Source: Fragilaria crotonensis (Eukaryota; Bacillariophyta; Fragilariophyceae; Fragilariales; Fragilariaceae). From it: a stretch of DNA of 43,682 bases. The notes below the pieces were generated by a model, which did no database searches, was not told where the DNA came from, and was given only the letters and a program-made list of their open reading frames with translations. The position numbers and the translations under genes are program-made. The stretch is taken from positions 1 to 43,682 of the forward strand of contig JAKSYS010000530.1 of assembly GCA_022925895.1 (NCBI GenBank), written 5' to 3'. Shown here piece by piece: positions 1,496 through 43,324 of the stretch. Position 1 is the first letter of the stretch, and each line of letters opens with the position of its first letter.

Positions 1496-1921
1496 ATGCC
1501 GCAAAAGACCACGATGTGCTCCCTTGATGCAATTTCCTCCGTCTCTAGATGCATGGAAAGAAACCAAGGTGGATGTGCTGTCGTTGTGTCCAACTCTACT
1601 GCTACATTTGGTGTATGTCTCATATCAAGGGGACGCCGGCATCGTCTTGCAGGTGATGTGTCACCACTGAAGTCATTTGGCAAGTCAGCAGCTGTCCTGA
1701 ATAGGGAACTTGAAATTGAATTGGCAATGCATTTTTTGGGTGTGGTAAAAAATGAAGTCAGTGTCGTGTCGATCATCCTTTGTGTCGCTTCTGGCTTCAA
1801 ACCAACGTCCGCACTTGACAATCTCGCCAAGGCACTGATGCAACATGCGGAAAAGTATGAAACAGCAGCAAATCTCCTTCATCAGCATGCAAAGATTGCA
1901 TCGGTGGGATGCGAGTTATAA
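1496..1921 (+). CDS. Hypothetical open frame, 141 aa, possibly spurious
   Basis: This is an ATG-initiated open frame with an amphipathic helical C-terminal half (ALDNLAKALMQHAEKYETAA). No family is recognised. It lies at the left edge of an AT-rich island with decayed sequence beyond it, so it may be a remnant of a mobile element and not a working gene. No splice sites or regulatory signals are evident. Confidence 0.2.
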   Translation: MPQKTTMCSLDAISSVSRCMERNQGGCAVVVSNSTATFGVCLISRGRRHRLAGDVSPLKSFGKSAAVLNRELEIELAMHFLGVVKNEVSVVSIILCVASGFKPTSALDNLAKALMQHAEKYETAANLLHQHAKIASVGCEL

Positions 1922-4639
1922 TGAGCATTTTGTGTGATGCAGAATAAATCCTGTGATGATAGCATCAACCAGACTCTGAAGGCTCTTGGTATCAGCCTTC
2001 AAAAGGATGTTGAGCCAATAAATCAAGCTGTATGATGTCCAATTGCCACATTAATTGTCCCGTTCACACCACCATGTTCTAGTCCAGTAAATCCATCAGT
2101 ATTGATTGTCCCAACCATGTCAATAAACTCTGCTCCATGATCACCTGACACCATCACTGTCATATTCTTGATTGGATTCAACTCAGCATGAAAGTCAGCA
2201 CTGAAACATGTTCCCATTCCAAGAGTACTTCTTGATTAAAATCCTTGCCTTTGGATTCCTCACACCTGAGTAAAATACTAAATGCAGCTTGAATTGTGGC
2301 CTTAAACTTGAGTCCGCCTTCAGCAGGAACATGTACACCACTAATCACTGATATAAAATGCACAGCAAATTCATTGCTGTTAGTTTTGATATCAAATCCA
2401 ATTCAAGCCACAAAGCAAGTGAGCAAAGAACACCATACACAAGATGGAGGGACCTTCACCCAATTTGCACCATCAACCTTGTTTTCAGAGTGCTTGTAAA
2501 CTTGTCGTGCACTCAAATGTGTTCCAATACTAGTTGTGTTGAGTCATCCACCACCACCTGAGCTATCAAGAACACAATACCTTTTCCAGAAAACGTCATG
2601 TCACAAAGAAGTTTGCACATGCCAACATTGGGTTTGTCCAAAATGTCTTCGTGTTTAGATACCTCTACCCATCACTTGGAGACATAGCAGGCAACAGCAC
2701 TACCATTGCATGTACATGATCATGAGAATCCTCACTTCCAATGGGATGATTTTGGACAAGCAACATGAAGGGGGGAAGAAGAAATTTGACCTTCATCAGC
2801 TTTTGGTGTCAACTTGTTTCCATAGCTATAGTAGGAAGCAGATGCAGCAGATGTTGCGGTTCCAAAAATGCTGGAATAATCGTTTGGAGTTGATATGCCA
2901 AATGCAGATGAGCAAAAAATGTCATAAAGTAGGCTTCCCTTATCATGTATCGTAGTACTACCACTTCTACTTAATCTGGAGGATCCGTGGATTGGATAAT
3001 ACAACACTGGTTTCATTCCTGAGGTAATCATACCATAGTAGTTCTCCAGCAAAGATGACCTAGGTACAATACTCCGCACCCTTAGTAATAGTACAACTAC
3101 TCTGTATTGTGTTCCTCTACAATGACGTGCATTCTGTACACCAACTACTACCGCATAGTGAAAGGCATTTGAATATTTGAGATGGTGTAGAAATACGGTA
3201 CATGTTGCTGCAGCTGGTACTTGTCATTTCGAGGTAGAACATAACCAGCTATGATAAAGAAATCGGTTCAATTACTGCCAGTGATATCTATAATTGAAAG
3301 TTTTCCGTTATTCATTGTGTTGATGCATGTAAATCACGTTGTACCTGATAGTGGCTAAATTGTAAATGTACCACATGGAATAAGTACTGTGTGTGGCACA
3401 CACATGTCTATTGTTGATATAAGTAGAAAAGCATCATGCATTTGACAGCATGAATGCTGATTGGGCTGCCTCACAGTCACAATACTGTAGCATTCAAAAG
3501 ATGGCACCATGTCCTAATTGGGGCTGCTTGTGGAGGGACGCAGGATGATGGCTGATCTCTAAGTTGTCTGTTGTAAAAATTCCAGGAAAAACATTGTGAC
3601 AGATGGAATGCTTTTGTATGAAAGCCCAGAAATCTGAGATCAAAGGAAAAGATGCCATTGACTAATGAGAGGATGTGGTTGTCCTGTAGATGTGCGCTAA
3701 AGTTTTGACATGATCATGGGTCATTAGTGGAAGCTTAGCATAGTAACCCTCTTCGTGAACATCCTGATTATGTCAGCATCAATGGCGAACAGCCAAATCA
3801 ATACCTCCAATATCAGACAAGAAGTATTCTGGATCAACAACACAGTCATTCTTCAAAAATTTGACATGTTTGGGTATGGAGGTGGAATTCTAAATGAATC
3901 TGCATTTTGGCATTCGAGTCACTGCTTCCTTGACCTTAAGGAAGTCAGGAATGAAAAATCATTTCAAGCACCCCCCTAACAAGATCTGAGAAGGGTGAAT
4001 GCTGCGCAAGAAAAACCCAAATGGCTTGAATGGTAAATGGTATGCATAGTATTGTAATACAGAGTAATTGAGCAGAGCTACATCGTGGCATGAATGCTAT
4101 AATCAGTGATTTTGGATCTGCTGATCAGGAATTGTGAATGTAGTTCTAGATCTTCTTTAAGCTTGAAATTAAATCAGGCCAAAACAGTGGTATGATTTTG
4201 GAGGTATTTGTATGTGTACCATTATAAAACACTAAGCTGAACAACAGCACAGCCCTCTGCTGGGCATGCTCTTATCTCTTATTAGTAGATGTTGAATGGA
4301 AATGATTTTTCTTCATTCACAATTCATTCTTATAGCAAGACCTACTATTTGGCAAGAGTTTACTTTTTGCTAGGTGTTCAACCACCTGTGAAAGTAGTGC
4401 TGCATCACCGGAGATATAGCCCAACCCGTAGTATTGATCATGATGTCCAGGCATGGCCCCTTGGTTGGGTTGCTCAATGTTCATCTGACTTTAACATAAT
4501 TCTTGATCGGTTACGTACAAAGATGTCCTTTCAGGCAATCGAGCCCGGAGAGTCGAACACTTCAAACATTGCCGATTGATTGGATTACAAGTTACAAATA
4601 TGTACTTGCAAGTAATCAAACCCGGAGAATCAAACGGAT
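1922..4639. other. AT-rich gene-poor island
   Basis: No intact gene. Base composition is visibly more AT-rich than around the flanking genes. Short open frames on both strands are broken every few dozen codons. The only stretch with protein-like texture is on the minus strand at 2023-2400 (separate entry). A similar AT-rich stretch lies at about 21750-22710. Confidence 0.5.
2023..2400 (-). pseudogene. Decayed coding remnant, unknown family
   Basis: On the minus strand two overlapping frames join by a single-base shift near 2200 into one protein-like segment, containing HFISVISGVHVPAEGGLKFK, then LLRCEESKGKDFNQEVLLEW, then MVSGDHGAEFIDMVGTINTD. A TGA lies in frame just upstream, near 2409. 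The family is not recognised. The AT-rich setting suggests a relic of a mobile element. Confidence 0.25.
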
Positions 4640-4660
4640 AGTTGAATAACGAATCATGAA
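4616..4660. repeat. R1 dispersed repeat, copy 1
   Basis: AACCCGGAGAATCAAACGG followed by ATAGTTGAATAACGAATCATGAA. It matches copies at about 5536 and 15326 in the same orientation. A shorter, weaker relative (GAGCCCGGAGAGTCGAA) begins near 4540 and another (TCGAACCCGGATATATCGAA) near 33322. Confidence 0.5.
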
Positions 4661-5500
4661 CTGTGAGAGCATTATACGTTACCACCAATACAATATAAGT
4701 TGCGACCAATACAATATATTGATATTGTTGAAGTAGCCAATACAATTATATTGGTAACAATATATTGAATGCAATATATTGCAATATATTGTCCTTTTTA
4801 CCTCGCATCAGACTTATCGTTGTGTTTGTTTAATCGCTGTTTAAAACACCCTGTTTTAAACAGCTGTTTAAAACAACTTTTTTCCAAAAAACAATTTGTT
4901 TAATTGAAATCAAGGTTAGGGTTAAGGTTTTACGGTTATGATGCGGTTTTTTCATGGACAAGTCTCATTGCTCATCACATATACTGTTTATAGGTTGTTG
5001 AAACAGCATCAAAATGCATAACATCATTTAAGTGATGCATGTGAGACAATTCAATACATTTTGATTCAAGAATGGTGAGACTAAAGGATGTTATCAGTGG
5101 ACACTTAGGGGATCCATACCATTCAGTTGGTGAGAAACCTGCATTCAACAAGGCAGAGTATTGTCAGGCATAAGTGCAATTATAAGTTCATGCTGATTAG
5201 TCCTTACTACTGTGAACTGTGGCTGTTTTAAACAAAGTTGTTTTAAACAAAACTGTTTAAAACAAATTCAAAATCTGAATTTGTTTTAAACACAACGATA
5301 ACAGAGTTCATGAAAGTGGTGTACTCCGAGTACAATATATTGTATCTGGTACAATATATTATTTGTATTGTCAAGAGGTAACAATACAAGTTCAACAATA
5401 CAATATATTGCTATTGTTGGACCGACCAATACAATATGTATTGGTAACAATATATTGTAATACAATCCATTGTTGCGCATCCCTGTTTACAACTCCGTTC
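4640..5500. mobile_element. Small non-autonomous repeat element (MITE-like) made of palindromic boxes
   Basis: Two outer clusters of CAATATATTG-type boxes (about 4680-4795 and 5330-5480) surround two inner clusters of GTTTTAAAC/GTTTAAAAC boxes. These are at 4839, 4853 and 4866 on the left and at 5225, 5240, 5255 and 5283 on the right. A perfect 14-bp inverted repeat, TTATCGTTGTGTTT, pairs 4814-4827 with 5288-5301. About 60 bp of the outer arms repeat directly (near 4709-4771 and 5400-5462) with scattered mismatches. There is no coding sequence. Terminal inverted repeats around a non-coding core are typical of MITEs, but the exact ends and a target-site duplication could not be fixed. Confidence 0.5.
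4853..4874. repeat. Perfect 22-bp palindrome
   Basis: Two GTTTTAAAC boxes head to head around CAGCTG form a perfect 22-bp palindrome inside the left arm of the MITE-like element. It could be a binding site or a cruciform-forming sequence. Confidence 0.8.
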
Positions 5501-5535
5501 ATGCTGGCCGATCGATCAGGGAATGTCCTTCGCAA

Positions 5536-5600
5536 AAAGTCGAACCCGGAAAATGATACAGATTGTCGAATTACACAAAAGATTCGCATTTATTTTGTGA
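5536..5600. repeat. R1 dispersed repeat, copy 2
   Basis: GAACCCGGAAAATGATACAG then ATTGTCGAATTACACAAAAGATTCGCA. Same orientation as copies at 4616 and 15326. The preceding cttcgcaa also resembles cctcgcaa before the 15326 copy. Confidence 0.5.
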
Positions 5601-6419
5601 ATAGGTACCAGGTACAGTAGACAAATGCTCGGAGTAGACTACAGTACTTGTACCTGGCTACCTGGGACATGCGGAAATTCATCTTAACCCTATTCTTCGT
5701 CATTTTTGGGGTTTTCATTAGCGAGTCTTGTACGTTATGAAAACGGTGTTAATAACGTCTTTTTGGGTCGTGTTCAGCACTGAATCCTTGCGAGCCAGCC
5801 ATCCGCACATCAAAAGAATCCTATGAGAAGGCAAATTCCACGTTGCTTTGCACGAAGCAGATGTCTTCGATGCTTCTTCGCACGAAGCAGGTTTTGCTGT
5901 GACACGAAGAAGGTTTTGATGTGACATGAAGAAGGTTTTGTTGTGCGGACTACTACCATTGTACTTAGTGATGCGTTCCCTATCAACGTACTGGGTTGTA
6001 TACTTGTACTACCGGTCGTGTAGAGTACTTGCACTAAGCATATCATACAAAACCACAGCTTAAGGGTAAACGTACTTGTACCACTCCCAACTCGGAACAT
6101 ACAACGGTCGTGGACAGAGTAAACTTGAGTACTAGTTGTAGTAGTCGGAGAAGCACTGCAAAATGCAAGTTTGAATAAAGGGCTGAAGCTGCGGAGAACA
6201 CCAACACACAACACACACACTCCAAACAACTTGTCATCATGTTGTTCAAGCAGGAGTCCTCAAAGCAAAAGTGGTTTCGATGTTGTGCATGCATCACACA
6301 CAACCAACATCGCACGATACTCACAATACTTGAATAGGTCACTTGGTTGGGTCACTTGACACACCAGTCTTGTGGTTACCCGATCTGAGAGCCTGTCTGG
6401 TAATCGTCAGTTTTGTGCG
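5601..6419. other. Intergenic with GTAC words and R2 repeats
   Basis: No gene seen. 5604-5665 contains GTAC words (aggtaccaggtacagtag, acttgtacctggctacctgg). 5840-5945 holds the R2 cluster (separate entry). The remainder is low-information sequence with an AC-rich tract near 6200-6225. Confidence 0.45.
5840..5945. repeat. R2 short repeat cluster, left copy
   Basis: Imperfect tandem units of CACGAAGCAG and CGAAGAAGGTTTTG occur, ending with two clear GAAGAAGGTTTTG copies. The same words with the same internal GTCTTCGA occur at 14985-15060 on the other side of the pseudogene block. Confidence 0.55.
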
Positions 6420-6782
6420 AAGTTGATTTGTTTGTTGCTGATCATGACGTCGCCGCTCTGCTGACTGGCACTGATCATGATTCCTGCTTTGATTCAGCTG
6501 CCGCCTTGATTGAAGACCAAGAACTCACGAAGGACATTTATCATGGTAAGTTCTCCTGGGTTCCGTTGACCGATGAGGAAATCGATAGACTTCAAAATGA
6601 TTTTTGTTGGAACCTAAACGAATCCATCTCGCCAAAGGCGACGTGATCGTATGGCGGTCCGACCTGGTGCATGCGGCGTTGCCTCCATCAGGATCTAATC
6701 CTCGTTTCAGAGCAGTTGCGTACACCAGTATGCAGATCGGGCTCGTGAAGTCGCTGGCATGTCAGTTTGGAGCCAACGTTGA
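6420..6782 (+). pseudogene. Fragment of phytanoyl-CoA dioxygenase-like (PhyH) protein
   Basis: Reading through two single-base frameshifts (near 6607 and 6730) gives a segment with WVPLTDEEIDRLQ and then KGDVIVWRSDLVHAALPP. The latter fits the C-terminal strand of 2-oxoglutarate/Fe(II) dioxygenases of the PhyH type. There GD.(V/I).W...L.H carries the last iron-binding histidine, followed by an Arg (NPRFRAVAY) that would hold 2-oxoglutarate. The N-terminal half with the HxD motif is missing and the tail ends at a TGA on 6780-6782. It is truncated and frameshifted, hence called a pseudogene. It is first in a run of gene pieces. Confidence 0.45.
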
Positions 6783-7640
6783 CCTCGCTGGGCAGTCTAT
6801 CTTCCGCATTCTTTCGTCAATTTGTTCATATTACTCGCAATTCCTCCTCTGTCGCTTCGCGACAGAACGCAATGCGGAGTCCACTTGAATCCAAGCTGAA
6901 AGACGAAGTGAAACTTGCGAAGTGGGACGAGCAATCTTACTATGCCCTCGTCGAGTCGACCGAAAGGAATCATCGAAAGCTGATGAAACACCTTCGCGGG
7001 TATGACGACGTCCTCGAAGTGTCTCTTTGTCGCTTCTGGAGGAATACTACAGCGAAGGTATTCGAGCTCCAGATAGCGCCGGCACCGAATCGTCGACGAA
7101 AGTTCCGAGCAATAGGGAAATTTTCCTCTGATTGAGAATTCGGTGGAGATTCATGATGCTGAATCGATAGCCTATTCGACGACTCCGGTTCGAAGGAAGT
7201 GGGAATCCGCTCTCAACGTCGGACTTGATTCTGACGAGTTCGTGAGAAGAATGAGTCAATATCACAAAGAGATGCATTACGATGTTACTACGGGTGGAAA
7301 CTGAATACCGGCAATCTTGGGCTCAAATGGGATCCCAGCTCTCCGCAGATGTATGCGTAGCCATCTTCGACCGCATCCAGTCTCTAAGGAAGGATAAAAC
7401 TCACAACAGATGAAGCAGCGAGCTGTGTCGGATCTTTTCAAGGCCCTCAAGACAGTTCCGGGTGAACTGCGTGACATGAAACACATGTTTCTTTTGCCTG
7501 TCCCATCCCCTTGTGGCTCCCTTCTATCCGAGGGCGCCATGACCCAGCTTGCGAACGCAAAATCCTATTTTGAACGGTCTCTGCTTGAGGTGCAGCGACT
7601 GCGGGCGGACGTGTCTATTTCGGAAATGCAGTGCGGCTAG
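6783..7640 (+). pseudogene. Fragment resembling midasin (MDN1), a ribosome-assembly AAA ATPase
   Basis: Coding sequence continues across several frames. One segment has KDEVKLAKWDEQSYYALVES followed by TERNHRKLMKHLRGYDDVLE. A second (about 7139-7304) has HDAESIAYSTTPVRRKWESA. A third (about 7360-7640) has IFDRIQSLRKDKT, MKQRAVSDLFKALK and AKSYFERSLLEVQRLR. This order and style fit the long linker of midasin, where a W.D..YYAL..S...HRKL segment precedes an MKQ.A...L...L block. There are at least four frame changes plus stops. The AAA ring and the C-terminal MIDAS domain are absent. The last stop (7638-7640) overlaps by four bases the cut end of the next fragment on the opposite strand. Confidence 0.4.
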
Positions 7641-9604
7641 ATCTGCAAGATACGCAATTCGTTCTCAGCCGAGGCGTTGGTAGGATCAAGCGCCAGTGGG
7701 TCTTCGTAAATGATCCAATTCATCGCCTTGGACTCCGACGATGATTCATCCGAAAGTAGCGAAGGATCCGCCAGAGAATTTCCCACAAGAAGAAGTTGAC
7801 TGAATTGTGTCTCACGAGTCTCGCCGCCTGTGGAAGGTCCCTCCATCGCATTGCTACTCGCGCTTTTCGTCCCGAAGACGACACTGATGGCAATAATTAT
7901 CGCGAGAACAGCGAGACCGATGCAGATCAAGATATAGCACTTTCGACTCCAACTTCCAGTATCCTTCGATTGTGCGAACGCGTCGCGGGTCTTTGAGTTA
8001 TCAGGTGGTTGCTCCTCGTCAATGAAATGTTCTTCTTCTGAGACCCCGTCGTCGCGACTCGTTCACAGCAGTCCCGACCGGGTAATCATGGCTCGCATTC
8101 ATATCCTCGTTAGTGGGGTGTTTATGAATCCATACCATAGCTTCGGGATGCTGGGGATCACGAGAGGAATCATCGATGGATCCCACAACATAGGCTTCCC
8201 CACTGGACATGGTTTCCTCCGCCGACGCGCCTCTTCGGATAGGAATATCAATGGGATCTACTCCTTTGGGAGCAGCCAGTCGCTCATCTTGCGGTACGTC
8301 GGAAAGACGATTCGATATCTTCGGGCCCAAGCCCAATAGAGCTGCGCTCAATGCAGCGCTGCTCAGAATAGAATTGGTAGCCTCGGCATCCCTCTCAGCT
8401 TTCAGCATCTTGTCCTCGTAGGACGGTTCGTCTCCAGCCTCCTCTGCTTCTGATTAGGTTCCGATTCGTCGCCGGCAACGACATTCGGCAAAACGAGCAC
8501 CTCATCCTTCTCGCCAACCTCTGCTGTGTCTGGCTCCATGTCTTGGTTGCTGAAATCCAATTCACGGTCGACGGTTCCAACGTCTTCATCCTCGAATACG
8601 TCTTCGCCAAGAAGAGACGGAACTGCAGGCAGCGGACTGTGGGTGACATCGTACTCAGTTGGGTACTGCAGAAGTGATCCCTCTTCCGAAGGGTACGCCG
8701 GGATTTCCTGAGGGTCGTAGGGCGTTGTGTAGGCGTGATTGAGTTCTCCGGTGGGTCGGGGTCTGTTGTTTCATCGGACTGTGGAACAGCATCCGAGTTT
8801 GAGGGAACCAAGGAAATTTCGTTTTCCTGAGTCAGAATAGCCTCGCCTTTTTGTAAGTTATCTTCTTCAGCCCCAGCGTTGGAATCTTGACGCTTGCGAT
8901 TCTCCTCGACACTATTGTAGATTTCACCCGCCATTGTGCCAACCTCAGTGAGACACGCGCTGACAGGAGAGCATTCTCTTGCGATTTCCTCCATAATCTC
9001 TTCGTCATCTTCTTCCTCGTCGTCATCATCATCGTCCTCGTCGTCGTTGTCAATTAGCATGATCGAGTCAACTTTGCTTCGATCATCCTCGTCTTCTGAT
9101 TTGCGGGTGAAAACGGCTTTGTCGGCAAGCGTAGGTTCATCACTCACTGCCAACCTCTCGTCTTCTGGCTCCTTGCTTCGCCAGTAGACTGCGTTGCTGC
9201 TGACGCGTTGCTTGGATCTTCACCGTCACTACCATTCGATTTGGGGACGTCCGATGTCGGGCTGGTGTAAAGCCCAGCGTCGACGGCTGGTAGTGCCGCC
9301 GTTCTCATCTCACCTGATGCGTCCGTCCTATTCTTGATCAGTCCTTCAAAGTATGTCGCTGCAATTCGTTCTCTCGTCTCACTGGGAGTATAAGGTGCGC
9401 CATCTTCATAACTAAATAGCTTTATGTCAGTGACGATGTCTTTATCCCATGCAACGGAACGTTCGCTGATGTGAGGGCTTTCTCCATTGTTCCATCGTCG
9501 TTCGGGTCATCTTCAGCGGCTCCTACGGACCTGCTGTACGTCGTCGTTGATCTGAAAACATCGACCACGAGAATATTTGTTGCCTCAACACCGCGGTCGT
9601 AGTT
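7637..9604 (-). pseudogene. Fragment of a diatom-type single-pass membrane protein (acidic cytoplasmic part, TM, start of LRR ectodomain)
   Basis: Read from 9604 downwards in several frames. First comes a segment near 9460-9600 (GVEATNILVVDVFRS), then KLFSYEDGAPYTPSETRER, then a strongly acidic tract (near 9000-9060). A Pro/Tyr-rich stretch follows (AYPSEEGSLLQYPTEYDVT), then a region with DIPIRRGASAEETMSSGEAY, then one transmembrane helix (IGLAVLAIIIAISVVFG, about 7870-7930). It ends with LADPSLLSDESSSESKAMNW and IYEDPLALDPTNASAENEL, the lead-in that precedes the leucine-rich repeats in diatom LRR membrane proteins. The LRRs themselves are absent; the frame ends at 7637. At least three frameshifts occur. 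Both ends abut other gene fragments. Confidence 0.5.
9001..9052. repeat. Trinucleotide run encoding Asp/Glu tract
   Basis: GTC/ATC/TTC-rich triplets on the plus strand correspond on the minus strand to GAC/GAT/GAA codons, which give the acidic tract of the membrane-protein fragment. Confidence 0.6.
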
Positions 9605-9607
9605 TCA

Positions 9608-10132
9608 ATGTTAGCGAGTCGTCGCCGTCAGCTTTCTGGGGTCATCCGCGAGCTTAGGCGATTAGATACAAGAGAAAAGGATGCAGTCTCCACAGGTCAC
9701 GAGTTGGTTCGAGAACGCGAGGCATTGCTGTCGGCGTCTATGAATCAGCTTGAAATTTATGATCAAAAAGTCCCACCTTTTGAACGATATCGAGGGCTAT
9801 CTTCTATTCTGGGTGATCATGCAGATATTTTGCCCAATTTTCGAGCACTTTTATGGTTCTGGTCCGAGTATTACACGCACCGAGGACGAGACCGACTTTC
9901 GTTGGAGTACTCATCGCACGTGCGGTTTGAAGAGTGGTTCACAGTTGTATCAACACTCTCCGCAGATGATGGTTCTAGCACTGGTGCACTGGTTCGCAGG
10001 CCCCCGAGAATGCCAAGAAGTCCATATCAGCGCGCTCCTCGAATCGTTGATAGTCCAAGGAGAACTGCATAGGCTCGACTACTCTGGTACTATTGAGAAA
10101 ACTACCTGTTATTTAGTCAGGGTCGCTTTGTA
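9608..10132 (+). pseudogene. Unrecognised gene fragment
   Basis: This open stretch starts four bases after the cut end of the opposite-strand fragment. One frame gives a charged helical part (RRQLSGVIRELRRLDTREKD) and then FRALLWFWSEYYTHRGRDRL and SLEYSSHVRFEEWFTVVSTL. A second frame, open to 10132, gives HWFAGPRECQEVHISALLES and LIVQGELHRLDYSGTIEK. Either could be the true continuation, and a frameshift near 9970-9990 would join them. No family is recognised. Its neighbours suggest another truncated host-gene copy. Confidence 0.35.
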
Positions 10133-10329
10133 GTTTAAGTATTACGTGGTCATCAGATGTGATCGTGACTTGGTGTTTGGACGCACTTCATGACTTATTG
10201 GGGTTTACACACTCTGCTCTTGCTTCCTATCTAGTCGCCGTAGCACGACGAAAGAACAGCTCACCCTCTTTCATCCTGTCTTAGCTCAAGAATGGTGGGA
10301 TTTCAGTTTCATCGGATCGATTGAGTTTG
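10133..10329. other. Spacer, nothing recognised
   Basis: About 200 bases between two gene fragments with no supported feature. Confidence 0.4.
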
Positions 10330-11341
10330 TTTTGTCAAAGCCTTTATGAAAAATGTGCTCAGATTGGGTGAAACAAGCTGCGCAGTACAAACTTCTTGAC
10401 GACGAGTACAGACGAGGAAGACGTCCCGGTTTTGCAGTCAACCAGAACGAGAGAGAGCAAGAAGAAAGTTAAGGAAAGGAAGAGTAAAAGTCCACGCGAT
10501 GACAGCGATGAAGAGGGTTCAACCACAATCCTAAGACCCGACGATGAACGAAGACGGCGACGTCAGCAACAAGAACAAGAATCTGGGTTGACAAAAGAGG
10601 AGCAAGCAAAATTAGATTGCGAACGTGATCTACAAGAGCGTGACGAGTTCGTTAAGCGCATGTTGGCAAAGGAGAAATCAAACACGAAAGTGAAGACTGA
10701 AATAACAGCAGAGAAAGCGCAACGACAGGTAGACATGGAGCAGCGCCTTCTAAGGGGTGAAACTGTTGTAACTGACACACACTGGTGAAACCATGACGAT
10801 GGAGAAGTTGCGTGAACAAAGTCGTCCAGCTTTCTGAAAAAGCGAGAAGAGCGAGAAATCACCTTGCTGGAACAGGAATTGGCGGAAGACTAAGAACTCT
10901 TTTGAGGTGTGAAGCTCACAAAAGCTGAAAAACAACGTCGGCAACTAGGTAGGGAGATACTGCGCATGGCCAAGGAAAAGAAGGGCGACGATGAGAACAA
11001 GAATGATGATTTCTACAGACTGCCAGATGAATTCAACGAAAGAGCCAGTAAGTCCGAACAGGTCTGAGCGCTCTTAACTTCCCGATACGTTGAGAGCAAG
11101 GGAGAAAAGATGGAGCAGGAGCTTTGGGAGGAGTCACAGACCCTCAAGGCCGGAGCTTTGACGACGAATCAGAAAAAGCAGAAAAATGACGAAAAGGAGT
11201 ACGAACTCGTCTTCGTTGTGCAAGATACTCAAAAAGGCTACGATCACCGTGATTAAATGCATCGTAGACTCCAAAACTTGGACCAGGAATCCCGGAGCAC
11301 GTATGTTCAACTACGACGTCATGAGTTGGAGGTATTGTTGT
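10330..11341 (+). pseudogene. N-terminal fragment of a Prp2/DHX16-like DEAH splicing helicase
   Basis: The protein text follows the non-catalytic N-terminus of Prp2/DHX16. An Arg/Lys/Glu-rich start is followed by ERDLQERDEFVKRMLAKEKS, a frameshift near 10790, then FLKKREEREITLLEQELAED and GVKLTKAEKQRRQLGREILR. FYRLPDEFNERASKSEQV and EQELWEESQTLKAGAL come next. In-frame stops interrupt it: TAA and TGA around 10890-10900, TGA near 11066, TAA near 11255. It ends before the helicase core, so no ATP-binding motif is present. In the family this segment binds spliceosome partners; here it cannot make an active enzyme. The stops are substitutions, so this is genuine decay and not only indel error. 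Confidence 0.6.
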
Positions 11342-11990
11342 GAATCGTGATCTTACTCGATGTTCTTTGTTACAGCCACTCCACATTTCGATTGAGGGAC
11401 CGACAACGGAAGCCTGTGAGAATGCCGAACAGCTAGTTGAGGCTCCCTTCGTTGCTAACGCAGACCAGGCCGAGACCATGGTGGACGATGCGCCTTCTTC
11501 GACGGTTTCGGCTCCTACTGCTGTTAATGGTGCTTGTGCAGAGTGGATGGGTACAAGCCAGCACCCGTGGCCAGTTTCACTCACAATGCCGGCATGGCGG
11601 TCGGAGGTACTCTCTTGGAGGAACAAATTGGTGTCCCGAATGAAATTGTGGGTTCAATTCTTGGGAGAGGAGGTGAATCCATTGCGTCCATGCAAGCGAG
11701 AGCCGCAAGGTTCAGATTCAAAAGAAAACGAGATGCAACCAGGTCAGACGCAGCGTGTGATTACCCTTCAAGCTGCTACCAAGGAGGCGATTGATCAGTG
11801 TCGATCCATTATTCAAAGCATGGTAAACGAGCGAACGCAGACCACCTCTACAGACATGCCCTTTGAAAATAACTCCCAAGAGTCTGGGCTTCAAGAAGCA
11901 CTTTAGGCTGGTCACGTTGTTGTGACTGTGGCTGTCCCAGATACCGATGTAGGACTGATCATTGGCAAGGCTGGATCTACCATCAAGGAT

Positions 11991-12418
11991 ATTCAGGATC
12001 GTAGTGGTGCCAACATTCAAATCCCTCAAAGTGGTGATGTTGCCAACCCGAACATTCGAACTGTGGCTATCACTCATCCGCACGTAGAAGGAGCTAGATT
12101 CAGGATCGTAGTGGTGCCAACATTCAAATCCCACAAAGTGGTGATGCTGGCAACCCGAACATTCGAACTGTGGCTATCACTCATCCGCACGTAGAAGGAG
12201 CTAGATTCAGGATCGTAGTGGTGCCAACATTCAAATCCCACAAAGTGGTGATGCTGGCAACCCGAACATTCGAACTGTGGCTATCACTCATCCGCACGTA
12301 GAAGGAGCTAGATTCAGGATCGTAGTGGTGCCAACATTCAAATCCCACAAAGTGGTGATGCTGGCAACCCGAACATTCGAACTGTGGCTATCAGTCATCC
12401 GCACATAGAAGGAGCTAG
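11991..12418 (+). repeat. Four tandem copies of a 107-bp coding unit
   Basis: Units begin at 11991, 12098, 12205 and 12312 with ATTCAGGATCGTAGTGGTGC and end with CGCACGTAGAAGGAGCTAG. They differ by only a few substitutions. The unit encodes the middle of KH2 in its first frame. Because 107 is not a multiple of three, each copy shifts the frame, and a TAG in copy 2 stops translation at 12192-12194. Three extra copies add 321 bp, so the last copy is back in the original frame. Confidence 0.9.
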
Positions 12419-12507
12419 ATTGGCCAAGCAGATGATCGAAGATATCTTGGTTTCAAAGCGACATTAGGCTCCACATATTACAATCCAGGTAGAGATTCCG
12501 AACAAAG

Positions 12508-12573
12508 GTGAGTTTGGCTGGTGCAAAGGCGCATGCAGCATACCTATTTCGTAGCTAACGCTGCTTTTTTCAG
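12508..12573 (+). other. Intron in the KH-protein copy
   Basis: GTGAGT donor and a T-rich TTTTTTCAG acceptor. Splicing joins the frames into NK-DVGMCIGRAG. Its presence shows the copy came from genomic DNA and is not a processed retrocopy. Confidence 0.7.
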
Positions 12574-13553
12574 ATGTTGGAATGTGCATCGGTCGTGCTG
12601 GATGTGTTATTCAGGAGATGCAGAACCAGTGGGGTACCAAGATCCAGATTCCATCCTTTTGACCCCAGGTATGCTCACTCGTATTGCAACCGTGACTGGG
12701 CCTGCCGATGGATGTGAACGCGTCAAGCAAACGATTGAGCGTATTGTGCTGGAACAGTCATCCCAATCGGTAATGTCTGGGACGGGACCCCAAGCTCATG
12801 TTCAGTACGGTCATGGATATGCTGGAGCAGGGCAGCAGAACGGACAAGGGATGGGCGGGTATGACGTTGGCGGTAGTGGTGCTTATGGCGCTGTGCAGCA
12901 ACAAGGGTATGGCAATCAACAGTCTCAGGTTGGAAGTCAAGGTTATTCAAAGGAGTGGGCAGCATACTATGCAGCGCAGGCAGCTGCAACTGCTTAGAGC
13001 AATCACGGGGTAGTCGATGCTCAAGTCGTTTCTCATGCAGCTCCAGTTGCGGCTCCGGCGCCAGCTCAAGCTCAAACAACGCTGGATACATACCACGAGG
13101 AAGTCTTTCGCTATCCCTTCTACTACGGCGAAGAGGCGGCTAGAGCTTATTATGGTGCTTGGAGTCCTCCGCTCGGAACTCCAAATCGATACGGTGTTAA
13201 TTCGAATGGAATTACACCTGCTCCGGCACCAGCTCCAGCGTACGAGGATCCAGTTCAACAGGCTCCAGCGCCAGCGGCCGCCAGTTATGTGTCAGCGCCG
13301 GCGACCGCCAGTCAGGTGTCTGCGCCGGTGGCTATGCCAGTGAATGTGAGCGACTCGTGTCGCCGTGGAGTTTCAAACCTTCCGGCCTGTATGACGAAGG
13401 ATTGAAAAGGTACATTTGGACTTGCTGTAACATTCTAACAAATGGGAGTATTCATGTAATGCAATTTAACTTTTTCCTATTCGCGTTTGAATCTTACAGC
13501 CCCGGTTGCTCCTGAGTACCTCCGAACAGAGTCGAGCCAAGCGCAACATTGCT

Positions 13554-13919
13554 GAGCGTTGTAATGTGTGTGTACTTTCAATGGTGTCAATTGATGTCTG
13601 TTTCATGTAGTCCGGCGATCACAAAATCTGCCGCGCCATGTAGTGATCGGGTATCACATGCTTTTCGGATGATGTACCAATGTGGTTGGTTTGACGATGG
13701 CATTAAATCGAACAACGCGCACACCCTTCTCACGATCCATGCTACAAATCTGTCTCCTCGGTCATTTGCTGGAGAATAGCGTCGAGTTGCGTCGTTTCCT
13801 GCGTCTCACTGAGGTTGTTGTCGACGGCTCACCCGGGCCTTCATCTTCGACATAATCACAAGCGTTGGTCGCACAAGTTAATCAACAATATAACCACTAT
13901 CCTTGCAACAACAAAAGGA
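13554..13919. other. Degenerate sequence downstream of KH copy
   Basis: Short open pieces occur on the plus strand (for example NNAHTLLTIHATNLSPRSFA near 13715-13780, followed by stops) without a recognisable family. It may be one more gene fragment. Confidence 0.25.
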
Positions 13920-14411
13920 GCCATTGCTTTCCTACTTCTTCACCACTCGGGTCATGCAGTAATGCCGCGAAATCATTCGTCCTCGGCTTCGCTCATACGC
14001 ATACGTTTTGCAGCAACGTGGGATCCATTGTCGTAGTGCAATCGATCAATTTCCTGATCATGAGTTCCGGATGCCTCGTCCTCTTCAACCCCGCTGTCTT
14101 CTGCAAACTAGATTTAATGCCAACGTCTGAACTTCCATCATGGTTGTCCTCTTCTTCCACTTCGTCGTCATGTTTGCTCTCCTCTCCTTTGAATCTTCTT
14201 CTTCTGAAGCGTTGTCCTCAGCCTAGGAAAGCATTGTTGACATTGCAAGAGGGAGACAGGTGGATCGACGCCAAGTAAGCAAATTTGAGCACACTGTGTG
14301 ATCTACCTCCCCCGCCTCACCATCATCATCTTCTTCGTCGTCATTCTCTGGCGGTTCGTCTTTCGTCTCGTCTCTTTCCTCGTCGCTATTATCATCCTCT
14401 TCCTCTCCCAT
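13920..14411 (-). pseudogene. Decayed acidic protein fragment
   Basis: On the minus strand a strongly acidic opening (MGEEEDDNSDEERDETKDEP, 14411 downwards) is followed in other frames by EDNASEEEDSKERR and SGVEEDEASGTHDQEIDRLH. Next comes DNGSHVAAKRMRMSEAE and, after a TGA near 13970, DFAALLHDPSGEEVGKQW. Frame changes and stops break it. No family is recognised. It is the last recognisable fragment of the block. Confidence 0.35.
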
Positions 14412-14984
14412 ACCTTCTACTTGAAGACCTCATCGTAGACACTTGACTTGAAATGTTCCAAAGGCACTCCTTCATAGTCATAATTCCCCGTTGGTGTGCA
14501 ATTGAATTCTTTTAGAGGAAAGATTTTTCTTATTGGCAATCCCGCGCGCCTCATTGCAGATCAACGGCAGGGTGCCTGTATTTTTCGATTCGTCCTCGGA
14601 GAATTGTAACTCGGTGGTAAGTTGTTTGTTTTCATCGAGGAAGAGCGCTTACATCTTGCTTTGCAGGTTGGCAATTTGTCGATTGAGCTCCTAGTTGTCC
14701 GTAGTTGGCACACCACTAGAGCTACTATAGAGCCGGTCGTGCTGCTGTAAGCCAAACGGCATGCATCTTCGATCCAAAGAATGCTGTCGACCAACGACAT
14801 CGATGTTTAAAAAATCAAGTCTTGAATCAGATAACAAACATTACTGAACAGGGCGACACGACGCATACACCGTCGCAAGAGGAGAGCATGAACAATGTGA
14901 GACAAAATAGTACAGATATTTATGTGAAGTGTTTCTTGGAAAACGACGACGAATGAAGAAGAAAATGTGCAAATGCTACACACG

Positions 14985-15060
14985 AAGAAGTTCGGAAGCA
15001 AGCGTCTTCGAGCGAAGAAGGTTTTCCTTACCATCTTCGTTTCTAAGAAGGTTTTGGAAA
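14985..15060. repeat. R2 short repeat cluster, right copy
   Basis: CACGAAGAAGTTCGGAAG, CGTCTTCGAGCGAAGAAGG with TTTT, and CTAAGAAGGTTTTGG repeat the words of the cluster at 5840-5945 in the same orientation. Confidence 0.5.
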
Positions 15061-15325
15061 CGCGCAGGCCAAGCTCATGCGCGCGAGTCAGACTTTCTCC
15101 GAATTCTCTTTTATAAAAGTAATCGTTGTGAATAATGAGTTAAAATATATTTAACGGTGAAAACGGTTATCTCTAACCCCAGTAAGAAGGATTTCCGCAT
15201 GTCCCTGGTGCATGCATACAAGTTCTCTCTACTCTCCCTACTCCATGCTTGTACTCAGTATCGTCTACTTTGCCATCGATTTTGTTGCACATTACACGCA
15301 GACACGTGCGCTCCTCGCAACGAAG

Positions 15326-15395
15326 GAGAACCCGGAAAATCAAACAGAAAGTCGATTTTCGGGTAACAAAATGATTCGTATGAGAATATTTTAAT
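15326..15395. repeat. R1 dispersed repeat, copy 3
   Basis: GAGAACCCGGAAAATCAAAC then AGAAAGTCGATTTTCGGGTAACAAAATGATTCG. Closest to the copies at 4616 and 5536, same orientation. Confidence 0.5.
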
Positions 15396-15628
15396 AAATT
15401 CTCTGCACCGACAATCCCGATATCCTGTATGCATACTCGCGCACGTACTCGTAGTGCACATGTACAAAGTAGTATGGAACTCATGGAGTATTGAGTGTAT
15501 GGAGAATATAGTAGTGCTGCGTTACTTTGTATGCATAATGCATACGTATGTGCATATGTGAGAGATTGAATGATTTCGTTCGCGAACCCATATGTCACAC
15601 AATTGCACGTATGATGTTTGCAATGTTC

Positions 15629-15636
15629 TGACGTCA
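15629..15636. promoter_or_regulatory. TGACGTCA (CRE-type bZIP site) upstream of the peroxiredoxin
   Basis: A perfect 8-bp CRE palindrome about 290 bp before the peroxiredoxin ATG. In Phaeodactylum TGACGT/ACGTCA are known CO2/cAMP-responsive elements bound by bZIP factors. Use here is inferred. Confidence 0.3.
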
Positions 15637-15745
15637 GCGTTCCCGTAGAAAATATACATACACACTACGAGAGTATACATATTAGTATGTATCCTGGAGA
15701 ACCAGGTATGCATAGTCATATGTACTACCGGTTGTACAATACTTT

Positions 15746-15766
15746 TACCTGGTACTGTACCAGGTA
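15746..15766. repeat. GTAC palindrome (10-bp arms)
   Basis: TACCTGGTAC-T-GTACCAGGTA, perfect arms with a one-base centre. A strong member of the dispersed GTACCTGGTAC family. Confidence 0.8.
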
Positions 15767-15925
15767 TGTACGATATTCCATATGTCCACATTCCATTCTG
15801 GATTCTGGCAAAGACGCCAAGGGATCGTTGATATTCTCTGAAATGCATCTGACTGTCTTGTGAACATATCTACTAGACTATACGTCGTATTTAGCTTGTG
15901 CTCCAAGTACAATTCTTATCTCATC

Positions 15926-16510
15926 ATGTTCCTCCCACAGCGCCTGCTCTCCATCACCAAAACGCGGACAACGTTTATGACGATGCGTTCTATTACCATT
16001 GGATCGGACCTCAAGACTTGCGAGGCGACCTGGCAGAAGGCTCGTCCCTGGTACAACAGCGCCGAGGAAGGACTGAACACGGCAGTAGACAACGTCCAAA
16101 CCATGAAAGATGTCTTTGCTGGAAAGACGGTGGCCGTCTTTGGTGTTCCAGCTCCCTTCACCGGCACGTGCACGCACGCGCACTATCCACCCTACAAGAG
16201 GTTGGCGGACGATTTTCTCGCTGCCGGTGTCGATAAAATCCTTTGTTACTCCGTCTCGGATCCGTATGCCATGCACGGGTGGGCCAAGACCATGGGCAAC
16301 GATTTTGACAAGATTCAGTTTGTGGCAGATGTGGATGCTTTGTGGGCAAAGGAAATGGCCTTGGATCATGATTACTCAGGAGTGTCGCTGAGTGTTCGTT
16401 CCAAACGATTCTCCATGGTGGTGAAAGATGGCATTGTCAAATCATTTCATCTTGTGGGCGAAGCCGAGAAAGACGCTGATGTCTTGTTAGAGGACGTCAA
16501 GCAGTTGTAA
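15926..16510 (+). CDS. Peroxiredoxin, Prx5/AhpE-like thiol peroxidase
   Basis: Intact 194-residue protein from the only suitable ATG. It reduces hydrogen and alkyl peroxides through a peroxidatic cysteine. FGVPAPFTGTCTHAHYPPY (about residues 72-90) holds the T..C catalytic motif, with Cys82 as the peroxidatic residue and Pro75/Thr79 preceding it. DKILCYSVSDPYAMHGWAK follows as in the Prx5 subfamily. Cys107 lies where many Prx5 proteins have a non-catalytic Cys. I see no clear C-terminal resolving Cys, so a one-Cys mechanism is likely. The first 26 residues are basic and hydroxylated with no acidic residue, suggesting mitochondrial or other organelle targeting. It sits 3' to 3' with the rhomboid gene; the stops are 77 bp apart. 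Confidence 0.85.
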   Translation: MFLPQRLLSITKTRTTFMTMRSITIGSDLKTCEATWQKARPWYNSAEEGLNTAVDNVQTMKDVFAGKTVAVFGVPAPFTGTCTHAHYPPYKRLADDFLAAGVDKILCYSVSDPYAMHGWAKTMGNDFDKIQFVADVDALWAKEMALDHDYSGVSLSVRSKRFSMVVKDGIVKSFHLVGEAEKDADVLLEDVKQL

Positions 16511-21613: not shown

Positions 21614-23785
21614 CTCGCCGTAGTACAGTGCAGCTGCAAAGTTTTTGAGACTGTTCCCTTGTCAATACACTGTTGTTGAGACTCTACTTTTCTTCTCACT
21701 AAAAGGACGATGACAGCAACTTCCACTCAATCCTAGATGAAAACCCACAGCAGGATGGCAATGTTGTTGTAGCAGACCCAATCCAAAATCAAAACATGGT
21801 CCAACATCAAAGGTATCATCTCTGATGTCAGCTCAATTTGGTGTCAGCATCAATGGCCTTCTGGATGAAGCAATTCACGACGTTGTATAATGATGCAGAG
21901 GAAAGTCAGCATAATGGCGGGCTTGAAATAAAGGTGGGTATCTGCATACCCTTGCAATCGATAGCCGCCAGCAAGAGTGCATATGACGTAGTAGTCTACC
22001 TATGAGAAACTCTTCTAACTCTATAAAAGAACAAGGAAAGCCTGTAAACCTCCCTCCCATCCAAGAATTTGAACTCAGCACCACCATGAGTGTTTGTCAT
22101 ATGTGATCACATGTACCTATGCCCTACTATACATGATTGAGCAGATCTTAGTAGAAACGTCAGAAATTTGGTACAACATGAAATGGAAAGGCAAGCCACT
22201 TCAAATTGCAGCAACTGTCACTTCTATGACAAAAAGAATGTAGTAATGCACTTTTTCCACTTTCAGGTTTCATGTTTCAACAGAACACAGACAATTTGAG
22301 CATAACCACCAGCTTTTAATATCCTTGAGGATAGCTGGCATGCGTTAGATTGCTTCCATATGCAGAAGCAAGCAGAAACAGTGTTCCATTATGACCTTTC
22401 TACTTTGTTTTTTGTCTCCTATTCACAATCAATATCGGACATGCTGGTCAGCTTTAGCTAATAGCACCTAGTAATGACACCCTCTCTAAAGCATCACGGA
22501 TATCAAGGCAGATGCTGGATAGTAGCTTGCCAATCATCTGAACAAAAATTGTCATACTAGGGTTGCTCATCCTCAGCAATGATGCTCAGTTAAAAGATTG
22601 ATCTATTTTGATGCTAACAATATTAAGTACAGTTCTCAGATGCCTGATTTGTAGCTCTCCTTACAGCATGCTACGGTACATAGATAAAACCAAAAGGAAA
22701 GAAATCTCCAAAGCTTACTCTCTGCTCACCTTCCGAGCTATTACTAGCAAGGAGGTCATCTGCAATGAAGTTGCTTTGTTGTAAGAGTAGAGGAACGACC
22801 TCCTGTGCCGTTTGAGTATAAAGTATACATATAGGAGTGCCTCCCGGTAATCCAGTGCAGTTCTACTCCGTACTCCTTTATTCGACGAGAACCGAGTCCG
22901 CGGCATGCATTTCGTGTCAGCATGACATCATAGAATTCTGCTCATGCGGAATCTTGATTTATTTCTTGTCGCAGTGAGCTCTTTTTCCGGAACCTTATCA
23001 ACATTTACAAGTTTGTATATGTTATATAATAAAGGTGGTTTTGAATTAAGCCTGCGGAAATTCCGATATCTGCATTGTACGTAGAAAAGGTAGTACTCGT
23101 ACAAATTTGAATTCCAGAGTGCACGAAACATCCCACAATCGTAATTTGTAGGACCACATGGACCCTCAACCCTCAACTGCACACAATCTATTTGTAATAA
23201 CTTTGTAGTTCACCCTTGACTTTACTTTCCAATCTGTGTCTTCTGTTCATGTAGCAACTGTAGTCAGTTGATGTGACAATGGGAGTGAAGCTTTTTGTTT
23301 TTGATTGATATTCAATGCCTTTTTTGAAAGGGCCTCATGACAACAACAACCACTGGTGTACCGAGTTCGACGTACAAACTGTGTACTCCAGTACAGTACT
23401 CGAAGTATGAAAATCTACGGTAGGCAGTGCTACTGGAGAGTTACAGTAGAGCCGCCAATCGACAATTTTTTCCTGTAGAATTGCAGTATTGTTTGGTAGT
23501 AGGTTCGTCTTCGAGGAAATCGGAGCTGCAGTACCACCATCACATGGCAGTTTCATTTATGAAGGATCTCGAAAGGTGTTCATACATGTTAAACATCTAT
23601 ACATATTTTATGCCAGTCTACTATGTGGCTTTCTCATGTATGTATATAATTGTGTATCATTAAAACGGGCTTGGCATGCGCGTTGGGGATTCTTGAAACA
23701 ATGAAACACTAAAGATTCCGTCTTTTGTCTGGCCTCCACGTGTCCAAGCTTGTCCACAGGTTCGATGTACTAAGCATCATTACTG

Positions 23786-23868
23786 TGACGTCATGATGAC
23801 GCGAAATGCATGCCGCGGACTCCGATCCTACATATTGGAACAGTCCCACACGAAACCCGGAGACGTCA
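23786..23868 (+). promoter_or_regulatory. Cluster of CRE/CCRE-like bZIP sites
   Basis: TGACGTCA at 23786-23793, TGACGC at 23797-23802 and ACGTCA at 23863-23868, all 135-220 bp before the ATG of the plastid membrane protein. These three words equal the three CO2/cAMP-responsive elements described for the pyrenoidal carbonic anhydrase promoter of Phaeodactylum. That they control this gene is inferred from position only. Confidence 0.4.
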
Positions 23869-36215: not shown

Positions 36216-36521
36216 GATGAAGCGTGCACCAATTTATGAAAAACTCCGGTCCATGCTGGAGTATGAATTCAGTGCACTTCAGTGTGCTGTAAGTTCTGAG
36301 CCGCGCCGACTTTTCAAAATGCACCTACGCAACCCCCCTTCCCAAATCAAGAGAAGAATCAGTACTAACGCGACAGAAATGAAAGTATTAGTGTATGGTT
36401 ATGCTTTTTCAGGCTCTGGCAGAATTCGTCTCACTACTGTTTTACTAAACCCTGTCTCACTACTATGTTTATACTTGTACTCATCATCTCTCTATACTTG
36501 AGTACACTCTACACAGATACT
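36216..36521. other. Flank between transposase and copia element
   Basis: 306 bases with no supported gene. It is the 5' flank of the transposase gene and ends at the left LTR. Confidence 0.4.
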
Positions 36522-36829
36522 TGAGACTATCACCGGAGATGATACTCTAATCGTAGAAAATAGTACGTAGTACCGTAGGAAAATTACTGTAGGAAGGGTT
36601 CACACAAAGTACGTTCTGAGAAATTATAAGCTACAGTAAAATTCGGCACTCGATCGTATGAACGACAAACTCGTCGAACGTGTCAAGTGGCACTTGACAT
36701 TTCGGGTAGTTCGTACGAAATTAATTAGAGACCGGACAGTACAGCGTATCATGTTTCACATTTCGATGGATGACCTCACAGTAGCACAGTACAACGATGG
36801 CATCGCAGTCCAGTGCAGCGTAGGTTTCA
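36522..36829 (-). repeat. 3' LTR (left in window), 308 bp
   Basis: It starts TGAGACTATC and ends GGTTTCA on the plus strand. 307 of 308 bases match the right LTR. It contains GTCAAGTG-G-CACTTGAC (36682-36698), a palindrome that may be a factor-binding site. Confidence 0.95.
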
Positions 36830-36840
36830 CCTTTTCATCC
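36830..36840 (-). other. Polypurine tract
   Basis: On the minus strand GGATGAAAAGG directly precedes the 3' LTR, the expected primer site for plus-strand DNA synthesis. Confidence 0.6.
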
Positions 36841-36937
36841 ATAAATGCTGAAACAAAACACAAAACGTCAGTTAAAATATATATGAGTCAAACGAGGGTT
36901 ACAGTTTGAACAAGAGACACAAGGGTTTGGGTGGCCG

Positions 36938-37777
36938 TTACCATCCTTGGACCAGTTTGCGGACGCGTTCGAAACTCTCACGATTTAGTCCTTTCGTAAG
37001 AAAATCTGCCCACTGCTCCTGAGTGTCGACCTTCACAATGGCAACCGTCCCATCACGCACGTGCTGCCAGAAGAAGTGCCACTTCACCTGGAAGTACTTC
37101 GTGCGGTTGGTAATGCGTTGGTTTACGGCGAGAAGAAGCGCGCCGTTATTGTCTTCGAAGACTTGGCACTTGATCGTCGACGTGAACGTGCGAGGAAGTT
37201 TGATGCCGGAGGCGACTTCCTGGAGCATGGAACGGAGAGGCAAGAGCGTACGCATCGCGGAGCTGAGAGCGGAGTATTCGGCTTCGAGCGTGGACAAGGA
37301 GATCTCACTTTGGAGGTGAGATTTCCACAAAATGGGACATCCGCCGAGCGTGATGATGTATCCAGTTCGAGACTTCGCGGAGGTCGGAGAACGATCGGGA
37401 TCACGGCCATGGAGACCGGCGAAGTCGGCGTCGACATAACAGTCGAGATCCAGCGTGCCGGTGGGCTTGACGATCATGCCCATGTCGCTCGTGCGATGCA
37501 AGTAGCGAACGAGAGTTTTAACGGCGGACGCGTGGCTTCGTTTCGGGCTGTGGCAGAACCTGGCGACCTGGCTGACGGCGAACGCGATGTCGGGACGAGT
37601 GTTTGTGGACAAATAGAGGAGCATGCCGACGATTGAACGGTAGCTCCACGTTTCCGTCATGGGAGGTCCATCGGGGTCGATTCCAAGGGCGGCCTGAGCG
37701 GCTGGCGTCCAATTGTAATTGCTGTCGGACATGCCAGTCGCTTCCTTGATTTTCTGGATGAGTCCTTTCTGGGTCAA
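36938..37777 (-). CDS. Copia RNase H and C-terminal part of reverse transcriptase
   Basis: 279 open codons. YRSIVGMLLYLSTNTRPDIA and AVSQVARFCHSP form the end of the copia RT. RNase H follows with DCYVDADFAGLHGRD (first Asp), LSTLEAEYSALSSA (Glu), EDNNGALLL (Asp) and EQWADFLTKGL at the end, the full copia RNase H order. RNase H removes the RNA strand after reverse transcription. The frame to its left starts mid-domain because of an upstream frame change near 37800-37850. Its stop lies about 100 bp before the polypurine tract. Confidence 0.85.
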   Translation of the reverse strand: MTQKGLIQKIKEATGMSDSNYNWTPAAQAALGIDPDGPPMTETWSYRSIVGMLLYLSTNTRPDIAFAVSQVARFCHSPKRSHASAVKTLVRYLHRTSDMGMIVKPTGTLDLDCYVDADFAGLHGRDPDRSPTSAKSRTGYIITLGGCPILWKSHLQSEISLSTLEAEYSALSSAMRTLLPLRSMLQEVASGIKLPRTFTSTIKCQVFEDNNGALLLAVNQRITNRTKYFQVKWHFFWQHVRDGTVAIVKVDTQEQWADFLTKGLNRESFERVRKLVQGW

Positions 37778-43004: not shown

Positions 43005-43304
43005 CTCGGAGATGGAACGAAGAGCGAGCTTGGAAGGTCTTAGAAAGCAAAGCACGGCGTGCTTTTAGATAAAATAGGTAGCCTAGTTGGTAACTTAGGC
43101 GCTCGGAGAGACTTGCTTGTAGGTTGGAAACCGTAGAGAAGATCAACGGGAGTTGACTTAGAGCTGCAGCGTAGACGATTGCGGAGCAATCGGGAAACAG
43201 ATCCTTGGAAAGGATCAACCTAAGTGTCCTTGGAAAGGAAACAACGAATTCCTTTAGAGAGGAATTGGCTTGCCTGGAAGGAAGCGTGAGGGGGTTAGCC
43301 TATA

Positions 43305-43324
43305 GATTGGGCAAAATAACCACT
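43305..43324 (-). other. Candidate primer-binding site
   Basis: On the minus strand AGTGGTTATTTTGCCC directly follows the 5' LTR, where copia elements bind a host tRNA. The tRNA could not be identified by eye. Confidence 0.35.

Follow-up and report, generated by a model that had tools for sequence, protein, structure and literature searches.

Introduction

Fragmented non-processed pseudogenes can persist as the relic of a segmental duplication, and transposons of the Helitron family are known to carry intron-bearing slices of several genes that extend over several kilobases. Here we describe a locus of the diatom Fragilaria crotonensis that is alike in the latter trait, namely a block of abutting and mostly truncated gene pieces at ~6419 to ~14790 of contig JAKSYS010000530.1 (assembly GCA_022925895.1; the whole stretch analysed, positions 1 to 43,682, is hereafter called the window). 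The pieces of this block are larger than the captured pieces of 58 nt and 280 bp that serve as examples in the available portion of an article on Pack-TYPE elements (PMC8903248). Gene-carrying Helitrons of maize are mentioned in the available portion of another article (PMC13317346). Among stramenopiles, the oomycete Peronosclerospora sorghi has many dispersed pseudogenes, which its authors consider, in the accessible part of their report, to be consistent with retrotransposition (PMC9997571).

The block was originally predicted, by a model that was given the sequence alone, to be a capture site, the work either of a Pack-type or Helitron-like element that carries pieces of host genes or of a repair or rearrangement patch made of relocated segments. 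We tentatively favour another reading, to which we assign a probability of about 0.4, in which duplicated host DNA has been cut by deletions to a set of abutting pseudogene fragments. The block is real and probably without function. If this reading is correct, the locus is a local record of a compact algal genome that is discarding duplicated DNA.

Seven gene pieces abut on both strands

Coding sequence was called over the whole window by a six-frame codon-usage path trained on 12 open reading frames (ORFs) of the window (3460 codons, including the transposase-like ORF at 33511). The penalties of the path were set by hand, and they were lowered after a harsher version, with misphased training ORFs, had called no coding in the block. 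By this path, positions 1908-6418 are non-coding. From ~6419 to ~14790 there is near-continuous coding-like sequence with changes of gene, strand and frame. Coding was called on the plus strand at 6419-7130, on the minus strand at 7655-9596, on the plus strand again at 10375-13400 (with two gaps) and on the minus strand at 13976-14646, with many changes of frame along the way. The gaps inside the block lie at 7131-7654, 9597-10374, 10739-10905, 12067-12613 and 13401-13975, and because the first two contain the remainder of a midasin slice and a DUF3689 piece, both found by homology, the path overlooks some coding. Per-codon scores of the pieces (0.05-0.18) fall within the range of those host ORFs on which the path was trained.

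Seven gene pieces can be distinguished (Table 1), and five of the seven are on one strand. As judged by eye, the midasin slice meets the opposite-strand acidic membrane piece near 7632-7648, and the latter meets the DUF3689 piece near 9590-9605, with a spacing within ~20 bp at both junctions; the DHX16 and KH pieces join near 11230. The mosaic is thus tight in the left half of the block, and the right half resembles ordinary neighbouring genes.

The pieces are evenly decayed

Disruptions were counted by forcing 11 trimmed stretches of the block (6868 bp; introns, spacers and extra tandem copies excluded) through a three-frame model, and by treating 12 open ORFs from elsewhere in the window (10380 bp, leave-one-out) in the same manner as a control. 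The block yielded 23 frameshifts and 3 stops, versus 5 frameshifts and no stops for the control ORFs, whose frameshifts represent the false rate of the model. In other words, 26 of the 31 events fall in the block (p=7.5e-7), at a density ~8 times that of the control. This density is homogeneous over the 11 stretches (p=0.73), as if the pieces had lost function together. Since the three stops placed by the model (11065, 11904 and 12995) fall in frame, the decay goes beyond insertions and deletions alone. Ten of the 23 frameshifts lie within 20 bp of a homopolymer run of at least 4, which is not a significant enrichment (fraction 0.085; random mean 6.4). No run of 6 or more occurs in the pieces that were tested.

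Identities of the gene pieces

The PhyH-like piece matches the last 28 residues of its domain (PF05721, profile positions 184-211 of 213) with an E value of 0.039, which is below the cut-off, and carries one frameshift near 6602. Searches of the PDB, in which E values up to 10 were accepted, gave no match for this piece, for the DUF3689 piece or (by phmmer) for the DHX16 piece. For a 61-residue query from the midasin slice, six of the ten sequences returned were midasins, and a midasin ranked first (6or5, residues 3343-3392 out of 4717 in the chain, E=0.0013); the five others (6hyd, 5jcs, 6hyp, 6i27 and 6i26) had E values of 0.046-0.1. These six entries derive from few species. A longer read-through matched midasin residues 3343-3462 with an E value of 0.006. 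Over a different stretch it matched designed repeat proteins more strongly (5byo, 1.4e-10), with each single repeat match being weak.

The acidic membrane piece has five frame changes or frameshifts and no stops according to the model, and no Pfam or NCBIfam family is above the cut-off. The DUF3689 piece reaches the very end of its domain (PF12463, profile positions 281-314 of 315) with an E value of 7e-8, above the curated cut-off. Past the domain its frame stays open as far as a stop at 10070-10072, beyond which no coding was called for ~300 bp. Its parent is presumably TRPC4AP-like.

The DHX16/Prp2-like slice lacks the helicase domains. When aligned with a segment of human DHX16 (checked against PDB 5z56_x), it is colinear in one frame with residues ~173-362 of 1041 over ~205 residues that are 24% identical. 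The BLOSUM62 score of 203 compares with a mean of 86 (sd 11) and a maximum of 133 among 1000 shuffles. By tblastn against the window with composition correction, human DHX16 gave an E value of 0.6, which taken alone is not significant, whereas the shuffle test is; this alignment crosses five stops in one frame, four of which the codon model treats as local frameshifts.

The KH piece is recognized in its read-through letters by KH_1 (PF00013) with E values of 1.3e-27 (two stretches) and 4.7e-12 (one), and by the KHDC4/BBP-type KH family at 9.1e-9 (above the cut-off) and 3.9e-6 (below it). Its best PDB match is a structure of FUBP2 (2jvz, E=7.8e-14), and as a query in genome contigs it found 17 loci with bacterial titles that are 30-39% identical. 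The 107-bp length of its tandem unit is not divisible by three, so the frame is broken. By their identity the tandem copies are young. The last gene of the block, an acidic one, has 5 frameshifts in 726 bp and matches no Pfam family above the cut-off; it may be whole. It is convergent with the KH gene, their apparent 3' ends being ~0.1-0.15 kb apart, and the pair resembles genes that are normally adjacent in a compact genome.

At least these two genes come from genomic DNA, because they retain four GT-AG introns that can be read by eye at places where the frame resumes. The absence of introns that marks retro-pseudogenes is thus not observed: three candidates are in the KH piece and one is in the acidic gene. 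No introns were noticed in the other five pieces, for which no dedicated test was made. Other eukaryotes cannot do without midasin and Prp2/DHX16, so the slices of these genes should be copies, and functional versions are expected elsewhere in the genome.

A Pfam scan of 18 stretches of the block revealed no transposase family; a few weak matches to unrelated families on single open stretches were below the cut-off and were set aside. Nothing was above the cut-off in an NCBIfam scan of ten stretches, and neither Rfam at the gathering score nor a tRNA search gave a match in the window. Four queries found no relatives in viral contigs, a search sensitive to close relatives only, and the midasin/acidic junction has no exact match there.

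Much of the original prediction is borne out by these results. Codon path and homologies agree that gene fragments lie almost end to end on both strands, and the midasin-like, Prp2/DHX16-like and FUBP-like assignments stand. The PhyH-like identity is weakly backed. One piece had been called an acidic membrane protein of the LRR type; it is acidic and has a hydrophobic, transmembrane-like stretch, and its LRR type is putative, no family having reached the cut-off. The piece that had been left without a name proves to be the DUF3689 C-terminus. The statement that no piece is complete was too strong, since, as read by eye, the DUF3689 and KH pieces appear intact at the 3' end and the acidic gene may be whole. 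Four introns are readable where one had been counted. The view that truncated host genes were copied as DNA is supported in the case of the two pieces with introns, and the essential nature of midasin and Prp2/DHX16 in other eukaryotes supports it for those two slices as well. Finally, the block had been ended at 14411, and it extends to 14646 by the model and to ~14790 by eye.

Table 1. Gene pieces, candidate introns and repeats in and around the block (window positions)
Feature	Position	Strand	Basis or remarks
PhyH-like (phytanoyl-CoA dioxygenase) C-terminal piece, 5' truncated	6419..6800	+	PF05721, weak; coding path begins at 6419
Internal midasin (MDN1/Rea1) slice, truncated at both sides	6860..7636	+	PDB matches; 3 frameshifts by model
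Acidic protein, single hydrophobic stretch resembling a transmembrane segment, truncated at both sides	7640..9596	-	Codon path
DUF3689 protein C-terminal piece, stop kept, 5' truncated at junction with minus-strand piece	9597..10072	+	PF12463
DHX16/Prp2-like splicing helicase, slice of N-terminal region, truncated at least 3'	10375..11230	+	Colinear alignment
FUBP/KHDC4-like KH protein, 5' end missing, 3' end apparently retained	11235..13512	+	KH_1; frameshifts and stops
Candidate GT-AG intron 1, KH pseudogene	11332..11375	+	GTATTG...TTACAG, coding resumes; by eye
107-bp tandem unit, 4 copies, in KH pseudogene	11991..12421	+	Tandem Repeats Finder, 98% matches
Candidate GT-AG intron 2, KH pseudogene	12508..12573	+	GTGAGT...TTTCAG; by eye
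Candidate GT-AG intron 3, KH pseudogene	13410..13499	+	GTACAT...CTTACAG; by eye
Acidic coiled-coil-like gene, decayed, possibly both ends kept	13654..14790	-	Coding path 13976-14646; ends by eye
Candidate GT-AG intron, acidic pseudogene	14223..14306	-	GTAGAT...TTCCTAG; by eye
Left-flank repeat A	5526..5603	+	Direct partner 15312-15396; score 65, 0/300 shuffles
Left-flank repeat B	5660..5679	+	Inverted partner near 15190-15209; inverted score 56, 0/300 shuffles
Left-flank repeat C	5843..5943	+	Partner 14973-15057; direct 52, inverted 36, each 0/300 shuffles
Right-flank repeat C	14973..15057	+	Partner of 5843-5943
Right-flank repeat B	15190..15209	-	Partner of 5660-5679
Right-flank repeat A	15312..15396	+	Direct partner 5526-5603; score 65, 0/300 shuffles

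Degenerate repeats flank the block

Three degenerate repeats, called A, B and C, are common to the left flank (5526-5943) and the right flank (14973-15396) of the block. Their order is mirrored (A-B-C, C-B-A), and their orientations are inconsistent. When inverted, repeat A scores 27, which was reached by 3 of 300 shuffles. Repeat B includes an identical 15-mer in opposite orientation, of which these are the sole two exact copies in the window, and a single inverted alignment (score 56) spans B through C, joining 5632-5897 with 15234-14969. Repeat A recurs at 4619, and the core motifs of B and C have weaker matches only elsewhere in the window. Between 5400-6500 and 14300-15900 there are 113 inverted 12-mer pairs with two or fewer mismatches, whereas ten shuffles gave 46-92.

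We considered whether these flanks might form a clean terminal inverted repeat and rejected the idea, since repeat A is direct and repeat C scores higher when direct (52) than when inverted (36). Nor do they amount to a clean direct repeat at the termini. A search for target-site duplications beside B, which covered exact matches, gave a best length of 5 bp that was also found in one of ten shuffles, and this match belongs to the near-palindromic repeat itself (CCWGG). For a Helitron-type 3' end (hairpin plus CTRR, inserted before T), a strict pattern of little power revealed no candidates in 14301-16000 on the plus strand or 4501-6500 on the minus strand, where the shuffle mean was 0.05. Also on the left side, at 4600-5470, is an AT-rich stretch with palindromic repeats of the TGTTTTAAACA type and repeated CAATACAATATATTG units.

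Other elements in the window

A Ty1/copia-type element occupies 36519-43632 on the minus strand, with 311-bp long terminal repeats that are 99.7% identical. Its zinc knuckle, GAG-pre-integrase and Pol beta-barrel are above the cut-off and its integrase is below; the genes are spread over several frames, and no 5-bp target duplication is visible by eye at its ends. Within 33508-36233 (minus strand), a 715-residue ORF has no Pfam match at E values up to 0.01, and we presume it to be transposase-like by eye, from a resemblance to DDE transposases. Upstream of it, in another frame, is an ORF at 35565-36233. A 45-nt inverted repeat (22889-22933 and 23783-23827, 87% complementary, 849 nt apart) is found where no coding was called, and it could be a small inverted-repeat element. 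The cyclophilin at 18953 has what we take to be a plastid-type leader, which fits a diatom, as do the style of the acidic membrane protein and the copia element.

Alternative explanations for the block

The reading that we favour would begin with the duplication, as DNA and with introns kept, of host chromosomal sequence containing several genes. Such a duplicate would have been redundant from the outset and hence would have decayed, and large deletions, each spanning from the interior of one gene copy to that of its neighbour, would have removed most of the sequence such that the remaining slices touch. Duplication followed by deletion accounts for the codon scores, the introns, the even decay, the 3' ends that remain and the convergent pair. 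The latter, together with the DUF3689 stop and the stretch of ~300 bp that follows it, is the remnant expected if ordinary genomic sequence is cut down, and no convincing transposon ends were found. We infer the duplicated origin, the role of deletion as the cutting process and the absence of function alike.

A number of observations weigh against this reading. The deletion step is putative, and ~5 large deletions within 6.4-11.3 kb, each ending inside a gene, would be required. Little intergenic DNA is left, which seems rather tidy for random erosion. The control ORFs were picked for openness, so their zero stops arise by construction, and the DUF3689 piece is undisrupted over 470 bp. Furthermore, the flank repeats are left unexplained by duplication and deletion. 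The two flanks are mutually similar (direct 65, inverted 56) beyond their similarity to 38 other stretches of the window (at most 48 for the left flank and 49 for the right), and this likeness is not predicted by a simple graveyard of pseudogenes.

Other processes could have assembled these slices. A double-strand break or a collapse of replication might have been filled in one step by template switching among unlinked genes, after which the patch decayed jointly. We consider this unlikely but deserving of attention, in that almost nothing separates the slices at several junctions (by eye), their even decay fits a single origin, introns seem to be kept and both strands are used; the difficulty lies at 11.2-14.8 kb, which resembles two native convergent neighbours and would make for a large and orderly patch. 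The flank repeats are explained best by a dead DNA transposon, Pack-TYPE or Helitron-like, that captured gene fragments and now constitutes most of 5.5-15.4 kb. Such an element would also be expected to hold several unrelated slices, some with introns, within ~8 kb and with five of seven on one strand, and it is consistent with the mirrored arrangement of A, B and C around the block, with the inverted alignment from B through C, with an inverted score for C (36) above all 300 shuffles and with the surplus of inverted 12-mer pairs over the ten shuffles. However, A is direct, C scores higher when direct and clean ends are missing; the 5-bp match beside B is explained by the near-palindrome and equalled by a shuffle; a Helitron-type 3' end was not found by the strict, weakly powered pattern; and no transposase family emerged from the 18 stretches scanned. 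The capture site of the original prediction is thus neither refuted nor firmly supported, and we regard it as distinctly unlikely. The strongest indication of element ends comes from the flank repeats, yet their orientations disagree.

The block might also be an artefact of assembly or sequencing, in which insertion and deletion errors or a misassembled patch give the appearance of decayed genes. The model placed 23 frameshifts versus 3 stops, and the copia element, despite its nearly identical long terminal repeats, likewise has its genes over several frames. Against these points, the flanking host ORFs are open, slices on alternating strands are not made by insertion and deletion errors, homopolymers have no significant excess of frameshifts near them and some stops are in frame, which leaves an artefact improbable. 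A further and quite doubtful proposal is that the block is the cargo of an undescribed element that collects gene slices, or the product of one-step template-switching repair. Unrelated genes, among them midasin and Prp2/DHX16, which are essential elsewhere, would then have been taken as pieces of genomic DNA and fused directly, between ends formed by a composite of A (direct), B (inverted) and C (both). If the slices truly come from unlinked genes, then the locus would show that a diatom has collected gene slices or repaired its DNA by template switching. Among the matches listed for the open-access literature (titles and starts of abstracts), none describes the capture of gene slices in diatoms, which is no proof of absence.

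Comparison with known systems

With Peronosclerospora sorghi, as presented in the accessible part of that report, the block shares the occurrence in a stramenopile of many gene copies that are becoming pseudogenes (PMC9997571). It differs in that introns are kept in two of its pieces and in that its slices are stacked rather than dispersed. The maize Helitrons differ from the block in two respects, as no Helitron-type 3' end was found and the slices occupy both strands. Like Pack-TYPE elements (Pack-MULE, Pack-CACTA), as described in the available portion of the article cited above (PMC8903248), the block has unrelated gene slices of genomic origin side by side, but no clean terminal inverted repeat with a target-site duplication was found. 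For the duplicated and deletion-cut host DNA that we favour, the appropriate comparison is with the relic of a segmental duplication. Although the slices of the block touch with little spacer, the two have in common several host genes, introns (in two pieces), frameshifts and stops, and codon scores like those of the genes of the window.

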